Shown one piece after another: positions 1,411-43,390 of a stretch of 64,000 bases of DNA. A model generated the notes under the pieces. It saw only the letters and a list, made by a program, of their open reading frames with translations. It was not told the DNA's origin and made no database searches. The position numbers and the translations under genes are program-made. How positions within the stretch are numbered: the first letter of the stretch is position 1; every line of letters starts with the position of its first letter. The stretch comes from Anaeromyxobacter sp. Fw109-5 (GTDB lineage Bacteria; Myxococcota; Myxococcia; Myxococcales; Anaeromyxobacteraceae), in contig NC_009675.1 of the NCBI RefSeq assembly GCF_000017505.1, forward strand, positions 4,220,501 to 4,284,500, written 5' to 3'.

Positions 1411-1445
1411 GCAGGAAGGATCGCGCCGGTGGCGACGATCGCAGT

Positions 1446-1498
1446 CCGTGGCGATTTGCGGCGTATTGCGGCCACGTAAAACCAACCGCTAAAAAGCC
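1446..1498 (+). ncRNA. SAM-II riboswitch
   Basis: P1 is a perfect 6-bp stem (CGTGGC 1447-1452 with GCCACG 1471-1476). Its loop starts with the conserved GATTTG, and the 3' tail carries the conserved CGCTAAAAAG (1488-1497). GCGG in the loop (1458-1461) pairs with CCGC in the tail (1486-1489), giving the H-type pseudoknot. Size, order and conserved positions match the SAM-II (SAM-alpha) class known mainly from Alphaproteobacteria and Bacteroidetes, where it represses methionine genes when S-adenosylmethionine is plentiful. Here it precedes a threonine-synthase-like gene and a sulfur-carrier operon. Confidence 0.93.
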
Positions 1499-1530
1499 CC
1501 TCGCCGGCCGAACCCCGGCGCCTGCGAGGG
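1498..1530 (+). other. Hairpin between riboswitch and start codon
   Basis: CCCTCGC (1498-1504) can pair with GCGAGGG (1524-1530), with CGCCGG/CCGGCG (1502-1507/1515-1520) as the competing inner stem. The 3' arm reaches into the purine-rich ribosome-binding region (GGGAGAAGGAAG, 1528-1539) of the next gene. It may be the expression platform that hides the ribosome-binding site; there is no U-tract, so an intrinsic terminator is less likely. Confidence 0.45.
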
Positions 1531-35273: not shown

Positions 35274-35723
35274 CTACGGGGCGAACACCCGCTCGAGACG
35301 CCGCCGCAGCTCGTCCCGCACACGCCGGAACGCGTCCAGCCTGGCGCTCTCGTCGCCCGGGACGCCGGCCGGATCGGGCAGCCCCCAGTGGACGCGCAGG
35401 GCACTGCCCAGGAACACCGGGCAGACCTCCTCGGCGCACAGCGTGACCACCACGTCCACGTCTCCGGCCGGGAGGTCGTTCACGCTCTTGGAGAGGTGGC
35501 CGCGGATGTCGATGCCGATCTCGGCGAGCGCCTTCACCGCGAGCGGGTTGAGGCGCGAGGGCTGAGAGCCCGCCGACGAGATCCGCACCGCCGCCGGCGC
35601 GAGCGCCCGGGCGATCCCCTCGGCCATCTGGCTCCGCGCCGAGTTCGCGACGCAGAGGAAGAGCACGTGCCCGGGCCGGGCCGCCCGGATCCGCTCGACG
35701 TCCTGCTCCCAGCCGGCGCTCAC
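35274..35723 (-). CDS. arsC: Arsenate reductase, low-MW phosphatase fold (thioredoxin-linked)
   Basis: From the GTG in the GTGA overlap the product has 149 residues. P-loop C24-VANSA-R30 is the CX5R catalytic site; the resolving pair is in TLCAEEVCP, as in Staphylococcus pI258 ArsC. It reduces arsenate to arsenite for the Acr3 pump encoded just upstream. Confidence 0.88.
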
Positions 35724-36865
35724 GGCGCCCCCCTGGCCGCAGGGCCCTCCACGGTGACCGCGCAGCTCGCCACCTTCCCGAGCTCGCCGGTCTCGCCGGG
35801 GAACCAGCGGTCGCGCAGCTTCAGGGCCACGTTCACGAGCCCGATGAGGACCGGCACCTCGACCAGGGGACCGATCACGGCGGCGAAGGCCGCCCCGTGG
35901 GACATGCCGAACGTCGCGACCGCCACCGCGATGGCGAGCTCGAAGTTGTTCGACGCGGCCGTGAAGGACAGCGTGGCGGTCTGCCCGTAGGTCGCGCCGA
36001 CCTTCCGGCTCATCCAGAAGGAGACGAAGAACATGAGCAGGAAGTAGACGAGGAGCGGGATCGCGATCCGCACCACGTCGAGCGGCACCTGCACGATGGT
36101 CTCGCCCTTCAGGGAGAACATCACGACGATGGTGAAGAGGAGGGCGACGAGCGTGACGGGCGAGATCCGGGGGATGAACACCCTGCGGTACCAGTCCTCG
36201 CCCTTCCACGCCCGAAGCCCGAAGCGGCTCGCCATCCCGGCGAGGAACGGGATGCCCAGATAGACGAAGACGCTCCGGGCGATCTCGCCGATGGTGATGT
36301 GGACCTCGGCGCCCCGGAGGCCGAGCCACCCAGGCAGCACGGTGATGAAGATCCAGGCGTAGACGGAGAAGAAGAGCACCTGGAAGATGGAGTTGAAGGC
36401 GACGAGGCCGGCGCAGTACTCGGTGTCGCCCCTCGCGAGGTCGTTCCAGACGATGACCATCGCGATGCAGCGGGCGAGGCCGATCAGGATGAGCCCGACC
36501 ATGTACTCGGGCCTGTCTCGCAGGAAGATCACGGCCAGCGCGAACATGAGCAGCGGCCCGACCACCCAGTTCTGCACGAGCGACAGCCCGAGCACCTTCC
36601 CGTCGCGAAAGATCCGCGGCAGCTCCTCGTACCGGACCTTGGCGAGCGGCGGGTACATCATGAGGATCAGGCCGATCGCGATGGGAATCGAGGTCGTGCC
36701 GACGCTCAGCCGGTCGAGCGCCGGGACGACCCCGGGCACGGCCCAGCCGAGCGCGATGCCCGCGCCCATGGCGAGGAAGATCCAGAGGGTCAGGTAGCGG
36801 TCGAGGAACGAGAGCCGGCGGGCGACGCCGGAGGGCGCAGCGAGGGTGACTGCGGGCTCGGACAT
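35720..36865 (-). CDS. acr3: Arsenite efflux transporter Acr3
   Basis: The product has 381 residues with ten hydrophobic segments; the conserved [18 protein letters not shown] segment contains the Acr3 cysteine needed for arsenite transport, and the late [19 protein letters not shown] motif is typical. It lies between arsR and arsC in one operon. Confidence 0.92.
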
Positions 36866-36874
36866 GCGGGGCTC

Positions 36875-37225
36875 CTAGAGGCTTCCGACGAGCGCCTTCA
36901 GCCGCCGCAGCGCGCGAGGCTCGACGCAGTAGCACACGCGGGGGCCGTCGATCTCCCCGCGGATGAGTCCTGCGTCCTTGAGCACCTTCAGGTGCTGGGA
37001 CACCGTGGACTGCGCCAGCGGCAGCTCGTCGACGATGTCGCCGCAGACGCACGCCTCCCGGCGCACGAGGAGCCGCACGATCTGGACGCGCGCGGGATGG
37101 CCGAGCGCCTTCGCGAGGAGGGCGAGCTCCTCGTCGGCCTCGGCGCCCTCGACCGGGCGAACGTCGGGAGCGTCGCGCGGAGCGGGCGCTGGGCCGCAGG
37201 GGTCTCGCTTCAAGGCCGTCGGCAC
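36875..37225 (-). CDS. arsR: ArsR-family arsenic-responsive repressor
   Basis: A GTG start at 37225 gives 116 residues. The winged HTH ([18 protein letters not shown]) is preceded by ACVCGDI, a Cys-x-Cys arsenite/antimonite site in helix alpha3, and VCYCVEP adds another Cys pair. It heads the acr3-arsC operon and probably also represses the divergent redox genes. Confidence 0.85.
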
Positions 37226-37335
37226 GGTTCGTGGTTCTACGATGAGCGCGCGACCGCCGCAAGCCCTCCGCCCGCCATTCGCGCGGTTCGCGGCGCCTGC
37301 GACAACTCGGCGCATCAGGGACGGATTGCCGCCTC

Positions 37336-37351
37336 ATCGTCATCATGCGAT
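37336..37351. promoter_or_regulatory. Candidate ArsR operator
   Basis: ATCG-N8-CGAT (37336-37351) lies between the divergent arsR and thioredoxin genes. Short arms; suggestion only. Confidence 0.35.
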
Positions 37352-37378
37352 AGGTGGCGTCGCTCGAGGAGGGCGCGC

Positions 37379-37786
37379 ATGACCAGATTCGCCAGGGCGG
37401 TTTCCATCGCGGGCGTGGCCGCGGCGGTCGCGATCGTGCTCGTCGCCAGGACCGCGGCGAGGACCGCGCCTGCGAGCGAGGCGGCGAGCGCCCCGTCCTC
37501 CACACCGGCCCTCCCGCGGCTGGTCGATCTCGGCGCGGGGAGGTGTGTCCCCTGCAAGGCGATGGCGCCCATCCTCGAAGAGCTGAAGGCCGAGTACGCC
37601 GGCCGAATGGACGTTCAGTTCATCGACGTGTGGCAGACGCCCGGCGCCGCCGCTCCCTACGCCATCCGCATGATCCCGACGCAGATCTTCTTCGGCCCCG
37701 ATGGCAGGGAGCTCGCTCGACACGAGGGGTTCATGGCCAAAGCCGAGATCCTGGCGCAGTGGAAGGCGCTCGGCGTGAGCCTCTAG
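37379..37786 (+). CDS. Membrane-anchored thioredoxin-like protein
   Basis: The product has 135 residues: an N-terminal membrane helix, a Ser/Pro/Ala linker, and a thioredoxin domain with active site C56-VPC59 (GRCVPCK, lacking the usual Trp) and cis-Pro in MIPTQIFF. It should face the periplasm and pair with the CcdA-like protein encoded 9 bases later. Confidence 0.85.
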   Translation: MTRFARAVSIAGVAAAVAIVLVARTAARTAPASEAASAPSSTPALPRLVDLGAGRCVPCKAMAPILEELKAEYAGRMDVQFIDVWQTPGAAAPYAIRMIPTQIFFGPDGRELARHEGFMAKAEILAQWKALGVSL

Positions 37787-37795
37787 GCGGCGGAC

Positions 37796-38494
37796 GTGCC
37801 GGAGCTCCTCGCGTCCTTCGGAACCGCCTTCACCGCCTCCGCCGGGTGGGCGCTCGCTGCCGCGTTCGCGTGGGGCATGCTCTCGGTCTTTCTCAGCCCC
37901 TGCCACCTGTCCGGCGTCCCGCTGGTGGTCGCGTACATGAACGGCGCGGGCGCGTTCCCGGACACCCGTCGAGCCGTCCAGCTGTCCGCGAGCTTCGCGG
38001 TGGGTTCCCTGGGGAGCATCGCGGCCCTGGGCGCCGCGACGGTGGCAGCAGGTCGGATGGCCGGCGACGTGGGGAGGGCGGGGAGCTTCGCGCTCGCCGC
38101 GGTCTTCTTCGCGCTCGGGCTGCACCTCCTGGGCGCGTTGCCGCTGCCCTCCGGGTCGATGCCGTCGATCTCGCGGCAGCGGGGCGTGACCGGCGCGCTG
38201 CTCCTCGGGCTCCTCTTCGGAGCGGCGCTCGGGCCCTGCACGTTCGCCTTCATGGCCCCGCTCCTCGGGATCGCGTTCGCGGCAGGCCGGGCGCGAGCGG
38301 GGTACGGCGCGCTGCTCGTCACGGTCTACGCGCTCGGCCACGCCGCGGCGATCGTGCTCGCCGGCGCCTCCGCCCAGCGCGTCCAGAGATGGCTGTCGTG
38401 GAAGGCCGGCGCACGCGCCACGGGCCTGCTGCGCGGCGCCGCCGGGACCGCCGTGATCCTGGGCGGCCTCTACTTCCTCTACACCGCACCGTGA
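37796..38494 (+). CDS. CcdA/DsbD-type transmembrane thiol-electron carrier
   Basis: From the GTG start the product has 232 residues with six hydrophobic helices. The two redox cysteines sit in FLSPCHLSG (C36) and GAALGPCTFAF. The family passes reducing equivalents from cytoplasmic thioredoxin to periplasmic thioredoxin-like partners, here probably the gene just upstream. Confidence 0.85.
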   Translation: MPELLASFGTAFTASAGWALAAAFAWGMLSVFLSPCHLSGVPLVVAYMNGAGAFPDTRRAVQLSASFAVGSLGSIAALGAATVAAGRMAGDVGRAGSFALAAVFFALGLHLLGALPLPSGSMPSISRQRGVTGALLLGLLFGAALGPCTFAFMAPLLGIAFAAGRARAGYGALLVTVYALGHAAAIVLAGASAQRVQRWLSWKAGARATGLLRGAAGTAVILGGLYFLYTAP

Positions 38495-38528
38495 GCGTGC
38501 TCGACCCGACGCCCTGGAGCCGACCTCG

Positions 38529-39623
38529 ATGACCGTCCCGCCGAAACCAACGAGTTGCTGCGCCGAACCCGCTCGCGCCGACGCCGTCTCCGTGACGCCG
38601 AGGGGACGGGTGCGCCGCACGGTGCTCGTGCTCGGCGCCGGGCTGGCGGCGTGGAGCGCCGCCTACGCGGCCCTCCAGCCTCTCTCGGAGTGGCTCACGT
38701 TCCGGGTCCTCGGCTTCGCCGCGGACTCACACCTGGGGCAGAGCGTCGCCTTCTTCCTCTACGACACCCCCAAGGTGCTGCTGCTGCTCGCCCTCATCGT
38801 CTTCGTGGTCGGGATCGCCCGCTCCTTCTTCACCGTCGAGCGGACCCGGGCGATCCTGGCGGGCAAGCGCGAATCGGTGGGGAACGTGGTGGCGGCGCTG
38901 CTGGGCGTGGTGACCCCGTTCTGCTCCTGCTCGGCGGTGCCGCTGTTCCTGGGCTTCGTCGAGGCGGGCATCCCGCTGGGCGTGACGTTCTCCTTCCTCG
39001 TCTCCGCGCCGATGGTGAACGAGATCGCGCTCGTGCTCCTCCTGGGCCTCTTCGGCTGGAAGGTCGCCGCGCTCTACCTCGTCACCGGGCTCGCCATCGC
39101 CATCGCCTCGGGGTTCGTGCTCGGCCGCATGAAGCTGGAGCGCCACGTCGAGAGCTGGGTGCGCGACTCGATGAAGGTGAGCGCGCAGTACGAGGGCGAG
39201 CACCTGGGGTTCGAGGGACGGGTCGAGATGGGGCGCGAGGCCGTGCGCGAGATCGTGGGCAGGGTCTGGCCGTGGGTCGTCGCGGGGATCGCGGTGGGCG
39301 CCGGGATCCACGGCTACGTGCCGGAGGGCCTGCTGGCGACGTTCATGGGCAAGTCGGCGTGGTGGTCGGTGCCGGCGGCGGTGCTCGTGGGCGTTCCGAT
39401 GTACTCGAACGCGGCCGGCATCATCCCGGTCGTCCAGGCGCTCCTCGGGAAGGGAGCGGCGCTGGGCACCGTGCTCGCGTTCATGATGTCGGTGATCGGG
39501 CTCTCGCTCCCCGAGATCGTGATCCTCCGCAAGGTGCTCCGGCCACCCCTGATCGCCGCGTTCGTCGGCGTCGTCGCGAGCGGGATCCTGCTGGTCGGCT
39601 GGCTGTTCAACGGCGTGATGTGA
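38529..39623 (+). CDS. Permease of the DUF318/ArsP-SO_0444 family
   Basis: The product has 364 residues with about eight transmembrane helices in two halves. TPFCSCSAVPLF is the conserved cysteine-bearing motif of these permeases, some of which export arsenite or trivalent organoarsenicals (ArsP). A CC pair occurs near the N-terminus. The location beside arsR supports a metalloid role. Confidence 0.85.
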   Translation: MTVPPKPTSCCAEPARADAVSVTPRGRVRRTVLVLGAGLAAWSAAYAALQPLSEWLTFRVLGFAADSHLGQSVAFFLYDTPKVLLLLALIVFVVGIARSFFTVERTRAILAGKRESVGNVVAALLGVVTPFCSCSAVPLFLGFVEAGIPLGVTFSFLVSAPMVNEIALVLLLGLFGWKVAALYLVTGLAIAIASGFVLGRMKLERHVESWVRDSMKVSAQYEGEHLGFEGRVEMGREAVREIVGRVWPWVVAGIAVGAGIHGYVPEGLLATFMGKSAWWSVPAAVLVGVPMYSNAAGIIPVVQALLGKGAALGTVLAFMMSVIGLSLPEIVILRKVLRPPLIAAFVGVVASGILLVGWLFNGVM

Positions 39624-42606: not shown

Positions 42607-42922
42607 GACGGCCTCCTTCGGTGATGCCGCCCGGTGGGGCGGCGGGTTGTCACGGGAGGACTTGCGGCGAAGGCGCCGCCGGAACAATGGACCTCCGCGC
42701 AGCTCTCCATTGCGTCCGGAGGAATGACGCCGTGGACCGGATCGAGGCCTGGACGAGCTCGCGGCGGTGGCGGAGTCCCGCCGCTTCGTCGCCCGTCGCT
42801 TCGTCGCTCGCGGCGGCGGCGCCCGGCTGAAGGCGATCTTCGCGATGCTCGATCTGCGCCCGAGGCTCGGGAGGCCGACATCGGCGGTGACGACGGATTA
42901 GATCCGGGGCCGGAGGTCAGCC
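42607..42922. other. AhpD-OsmC divergent intergenic region
   Basis: No convincing gene. One stretch (about 42750-42900, plus strand) reads LDELAAVAESRRF and ends MLDLRPRLGRPTSAVTTD before a TAG, which looks protein-like but has no start in frame, so it may be a relic. A GGAGG at 42911-42915 serves the OsmC start. Confidence 0.4.
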
Positions 42923-43390
42923 ATGGGGAACGTCGTCTACCGGTCCGAGGCGAAGGTCGAGCGGGTGAAAGGGCCGTTGCGGCGGGCGTTCCTCCCGGGG
43001 GAGTCGGAACCGGTCACGTTCGGCGTGCACGGCGCGGTGGCCGAGCACTACGGCCGGCCGCCCGGTACGTTCGACCCGCACGCGACGACCATCGACTACG
43101 TCGTCGCGGCGACCGGCGGTTGACTGGCCGGGACCTTCGGAGGCGCGCTGGAGGCGCGCCAGATCCCGGCAGACGAGGGGAAGCTGGTCGGCCACGCGAC
43201 GGGCGAGGTCGAGCTCGAAGGGAAGGTGCTCGTGCTGAGGCGCATCCACGTCAGGCTCGAGCTGCGCGCGGCTCCGGAGCACCACGCGACGGCCGAACGG
43301 GTGCACGGCTTCTACGCCGACTCCTGTCCGCTCTACCGGAGCCTCCGCGCGGCCATCGGCATCACCACCGAGCTCGTGATCGTCGAGTAG
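42923..43390 (+). CDS. OsmC-family peroxidase, probable selenoprotein (in-frame TGA = Sec67)
   Basis: The ATG follows GGAGG. The frame gives 66 residues, a TGA at 43121-43123, then 88 more residues to TAG at 43390; total 155 with residue 67 read through. Both sides of the TGA are OsmC: TTIDYVVAATGG before and LAGTFGGALEARQIP after, continuing to C135 in YADSCPLYRSL, the conserved resolving cysteine. In the family the residue after GG at this place is the peroxidatic cysteine, so TGA replaces exactly that codon. A SECIS-like hairpin begins 3 bases after the TGA. Alternative: a TGC-to-TGA null mutation. Confidence 0.75.
43127..43170 (+). promoter_or_regulatory. Bacterial SECIS-like hairpin
   Basis: Lower stem GCCGGGA/TCCCGGC (43127-43133/43164-43170, 7 bp), internal loop (8 and 3 bases), upper stem GGCGCGC/GCGCGCC (43142-43148/43154-43160, 7 bp) and apical loop TGGAG. 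The GG in the loop is 27 bases after the TGA, inside the 16-37 base range known for bacterial SECIS elements recognised by SelB. Confidence 0.7.

Follow-up and report, generated by a model that had tools for sequence, protein, structure and literature searches.

A gene of the OsmC family in Anaeromyxobacter sp. Fw109-5 is interrupted by a single in-frame TGA at codon 67, and on comparative grounds it is close to certain that this codon inserts selenocysteine (Sec) into a redox protein with the OsmC fold. The conservation of the stop codon, the selection acting downstream of it, the Sec machinery of the host, and the residues found at this position in relatives are considered in turn below, followed by the probable function of the protein and its place among known OsmC selenoproteins.

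The OsmC-family gene and its in-frame TGA

The gene lies in a stretch of 64,000 nucleotides (the window), whose numbering is used throughout. Its main features are the following.

42912..42916, plus strand: GGAGG, separated from the ATG by 6 nt and probably the ribosome binding site (read from the sequence)
42923..43390, plus strand: coding sequence of the predicted OsmC-family selenoprotein, 155 residues, ATG to TAG (translation, Pfam OsmC, homologues)
43121..43123, plus strand: TGA, codon 67, predicted Sec at the peroxidatic-cysteine position (homologues, alignment with 1ukk)
43325..43327, plus strand: TGT, Cys135, candidate resolving cysteine (invariant in alignments A2 and A3)

The frame opens with the ATG at 42923, closes with the TAG at 43388 to 43390, and is broken only by the TGA at 43121 to 43123, exactly as a sequence-only reading of this DNA had described it. 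The read-through protein matches the Pfam OsmC family (PF02566) with 41.9 bits (cut-off, 27.5 bits) over residues 55 to 150, and this match spans the TGA. A standard gene caller would shorten the gene to 66 residues or overlook it.

Directly upstream and divergent is a carboxymuconolactone decarboxylase/AhpD-like gene (PF02627; 42058 to 42606, minus strand), a pairing that is not kept at other OsmC loci. Elsewhere, the window contains a SAM_alpha riboswitch (1438 to 1513, plus strand; 45.8 bits) and, at 35723 to 39620, genes for an SBF-family transporter (PF01758, possibly of the ACR3 type) and an ArsP_1 permease (PF03773), with ArsR-like and ArsC-like frames nearby; the latter is a probable arsenic resistance region.

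Conservation of the TGA and selection on both sides of it

Codon 67 is TGA in 36 of 37 aligned homologues and TAG in the remaining one. Among 60 related genomes, counting the source genome, 14 carry the full gene, each with one in-frame TGA, and 2 more carry fragments; the related genomes thus keep TGA at this codon, where the alternative to be checked was TGC. With each species represented by a single genome, a further scan recovered 26 loci, labeled Acidobacteria/Bryobacterales/Terriglobia, Gemmatimonadetes, Chloroflexi, Actinobacteria, and Anaeromyxobacter, and an Anaeromyxobacter soli record is among the related loci. The subfamily was also found in 18 of the 195 Myxococcota and 47 of the 396 Actinomycetota genomes sampled, mostly with one TGA. 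Overall, the arrangement recurs across dozens of bacteria in about five phyla, and its distribution is widespread and patchy. Searches for homologues on plasmids and on viral contigs found none.

In 12 pairwise comparisons, dN/dS ranged from 0.03 to 0.35 before the stop and from 0.07 to 0.61 after it. These low values indicate purifying selection on both sides of the TGA, and selection after the stop excludes decay of the downstream frame in relatives, one of the outcomes that would have spoken against Sec. They also bear out the earlier observation that conserved sequence continues on both sides, including Cys135, which is invariant in the alignment.

The same data bear on the possibility that the gene is a pseudogene or the product of a sequencing error, with the TGA representing a nonsense mutation or a misread TGC or TGT. 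Degraded copies do exist elsewhere (L101, L100, and L057), but an identical stop at the identical codon in dozens of independent genomes, together with purifying selection after that stop, leaves this explanation with a negligible probability, and we reject it on the basis of TGA conservation and dN/dS.

The degraded-looking copies comprise one frameshifted (L101), one stop-riddled (L100), and one frame-broken (L057) locus, and they may reflect either real decay or assembly error. Within the genus, where nine genomes were compared (G000, the source genome, and G001 to G008), G000, G005, G006, and G008 have the gene; the five that lack it include G002 and G007, each a single contig.

Selenocysteine machinery and cysteine-containing relatives

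The source genome is a single contig of 5,277,990 bases (99.96% complete) and encodes the full set of Sec genes, all above curated cut-offs: selA (545 bits), selB (325 bits; a 651-residue open reading frame), selD (397 bits), and selC, whose tRNA-Sec product has the anticodon UCA (75 bits). The selD gene (L065; G000:C1:4028582-4029508) has one in-frame TGA of its own, and SelD itself is therefore probably a selenoprotein. All four genes that the sequence-only reading had proposed to look for are thus present.

Cysteine occupies the codon 67 column in more divergent relatives (L058 and L088 to L094), in agreement with the expectation that non-Sec homologues would have Cys there. The two forms differ in the company they keep: SelB scored above the curated cut-off in none of the six genomes that have non-Sec forms only versus 30 of the 33 Sec-form genomes tested (Fisher P value = 2.6e-5, from counts uncorrected for relatedness). 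One of the six non-Sec genomes (G526) has a subthreshold SelB match of 219 bits, which may be another elongation factor. The three TGA-form assemblies with no SelB match (G381, G466, and G542) are perhaps incomplete.

The single homologue with TAG in place of TGA is that of Geodermatophilus pulveris (L054, 2995 to 3447). The best tRNA-Sec-family match in this organism (64 bits) has the anticodon CUA, on the basis of which ARAGORN calls it a tRNA-Pyl. Geodermatophilaceae decode UAG as Sec, and the UAG-encoded selenoproteins listed for them are FDH, a protein with a UGSC motif, and AhpC (PMC5330540). The G. pulveris homologue resembles these in its use of TAG with a CUA tRNA-Sec and differs in that no OsmC-type protein is among those named in that study. 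By sequence, L054 is apparently a UAG-encoded OsmC selenoprotein, adding a further gene to the UAG-Sec set. The codon and the Sec tRNA anticodon have changed together, which is hard to explain unless the position is Sec.

UGA is read through at a low level in bacteria, and codon 67 might on that account be read as some other residue, such as Trp or Cys by near-cognate read-through, rather than as Sec. However, the genome has a complete Sec machinery, relatives have Cys and not Trp at this position, the Cys forms occur in genomes without SelB, and the Geodermatophilus gene combines TAG with a CUA tRNA-Sec, so that decoding as another residue appears very improbable. Taken together, the Cys relatives, the sel genes, the retained TGA, and the intact downstream frame support the original proposal that this TGA encodes Sec.

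Candidate SECIS hairpins

Two overlapping hairpins downstream of the TGA are candidate SECIS elements.

43134..43154, plus strand: candidate SECIS hairpin CCUUCGG-AGGCGCG-CUGGAGG, with 17 nt between the UGA and the loop
43142..43160, plus strand: alternative candidate SECIS hairpin with an 8-bp stem, GGCGCGCU/GGCGCGCC, the minimum-energy fold and the most stable here

In Escherichia coli fdhF, the spacing is the same 17 nt and the loop begins with AGG. Across 34 sequences, covariation supported neither hairpin: 89% of cells were paired in the first and 87% in the second, with no compensatory changes in either. Compared with synonymous shuffles, folding stability showed a weak excess, which also occurred outside the candidate SECIS region. 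Codons 74 to 78 (Gly-Ala-Leu-Glu-Ala) vary less than any other conserved column of the same amino acid (permutation P value = 9e-5, with the limits of the tested set chosen post hoc), and this invariance is suggestive of what would be expected under a SECIS. It is therefore plausible, given the right spacing and the frozen codons, that a SECIS hairpin lies downstream of the UGA.

Fold, active site, and proposed mechanism

An AlphaFold model was built from 23 sequences, with Cys placed at position 67; its mean pLDDT is 86.7, and residues 40 to 46 are poor. The best structural matches of the predicted fold are to OsmC/Ohr proteins, with Z scores of 12.5 to 3cje and 10 to 11 to the OsmC proteins of E. 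coli and Thermus thermophilus. A phmmer search of the single protein against the PDB gave no matches, but a profile did reach OsmC and aligned residue 67 with the active-site Cys of T. thermophilus OsmC (1ukk; E = 9.5e-4). In the model, residue 67 falls within a central helix (residues 56 to 78). Residue 67 and Cys135 are both invariant; the former corresponds to the central-helix position of the peroxidatic Cys (or Sec) and the latter to the second conserved Cys. R20, H36, H42, Y43, R107, and R139 are invariant as well and are candidate catalytic residues.

With the characterized enzymes that reduce hydroperoxides, OsmC (1nye/1qwi from E. coli and 1ukk from T. thermophilus) and Ohr (1n2f), the protein shares the predicted fold (Z scores of about 10 to 12.5), the position of the active-site residue, and a second Cys in a CP motif. 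It differs in having Sec for Cys, in its low identity (about 10 to 16%), and in a set of invariant residues of its own.

We propose that SelB would bring Sec-tRNA(UCA) to UGA codon 67, helped by the putative SECIS hairpin just downstream, so placing Sec67 in the central helix where OsmC enzymes hold the peroxidatic Cys. The selenolate of Sec67 would then probably reduce organic hydroperoxides and form a selenenylsulfide with Cys135, which a cellular dithiol could reset. By analogy in fold and residues, we regard the hydroperoxidase step as probable; the role of Cys135 as the resolving residue is likewise inferred from its position.

An OsmC-fold selenoprotein might instead have a function other than hydroperoxide reduction, for example, as a thiol-disulfide or reactive-sulfur enzyme. 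Such a role would fit the low similarity to characterized OsmC/Ohr proteins (the profile E value of 9.5e-4 to 1ukk), the subfamily's own set of invariant residues (R20, H36, H42, Y43, R107, and R139), and the lack of a conserved neighbor linking the gene to a pathway. No neighboring gene is conserved across phyla, shared flanks occur only among close relatives, and the largest neighborhood clusters consist of overlapping-frame open reading frames of the OsmC gene itself. On the other hand, Sec67 is located where OsmC has its peroxidatic Cys, Cys135 is located where it has its second Cys, and the fold is closest to OsmC/Ohr. We therefore consider another function possible though rather unlikely and favor hydroperoxide reduction; the "peroxidase" name given in the sequence-only reading derives from OsmC family membership and holds at that level.

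Relationship to known OsmC selenoproteins

The claim that this is a new selenoprotein stands at the level of the subfamily and not of the family. OsmC-like selenoproteins had been said to be known from metagenomes, and one was indeed described from the Sargasso Sea in 2005 (COG1765; motif UxxT) (PMC1088965). The present protein resembles it in belonging to the OsmC family with an in-frame UGA at the redox site. Its own motif is ULxGT, with an invariant Gly at +3 and Thr at +4; in this comparison with the published motif, the UxxT pattern is absent from it. Reviews of 2022 and 2026 mention the Sargasso type as the only OsmC selenoprotein, and the 11 selenoproteins listed in 2006 for Anaeromyxobacter dehalogenans include no OsmC protein (PMC1794560).

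The NCBIfam family OsmC_like_Se (NF041052) likewise has the OsmC fold and is named for selenoprotein members. The present protein gave no match to this model at E ≤ 1 (model cut-off, 95 bits); a search of the source genome matched only other OsmC paralogues, below the cut-off, and the codon 67 TGA locus was not among them. No members above the cut-off were found in Myxococcota. Those in Actinomycetota represent another OsmC branch, with Cys in the readable ones, and one genome (G316) contains one member of each type. Because OsmC-like selenoproteins have been published and the present protein falls outside NF041052, it represents a new subfamily within a known class of selenoproteins. By sequence, the ULxGT type is a separate subfamily of the OsmC selenoproteins already known, and it may already carry some database annotation.

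Overall, the ULxGT proteins likely form a widespread subfamily of OsmC selenoproteins that has not been catalogued, with members in Myxococcota, Acidobacteriota, Gemmatimonadota, Actinomycetota, and Chloroflexi-labeled genomes. In such a subfamily, Sec would prevail, Cys would be confined to divergent branches that lack SelB, and UAG would encode at least one member. This would provide a second type of OsmC selenoprotein, and the small size of the protein makes it well suited to a comparison of Sec and Cys at the OsmC active site. Given the presence of the subfamily, mostly with Sec, in 47 of 396 Actinomycetota and 18 of 195 Myxococcota genomes sampled, many genomes probably carry an overlooked antioxidant selenoprotein.
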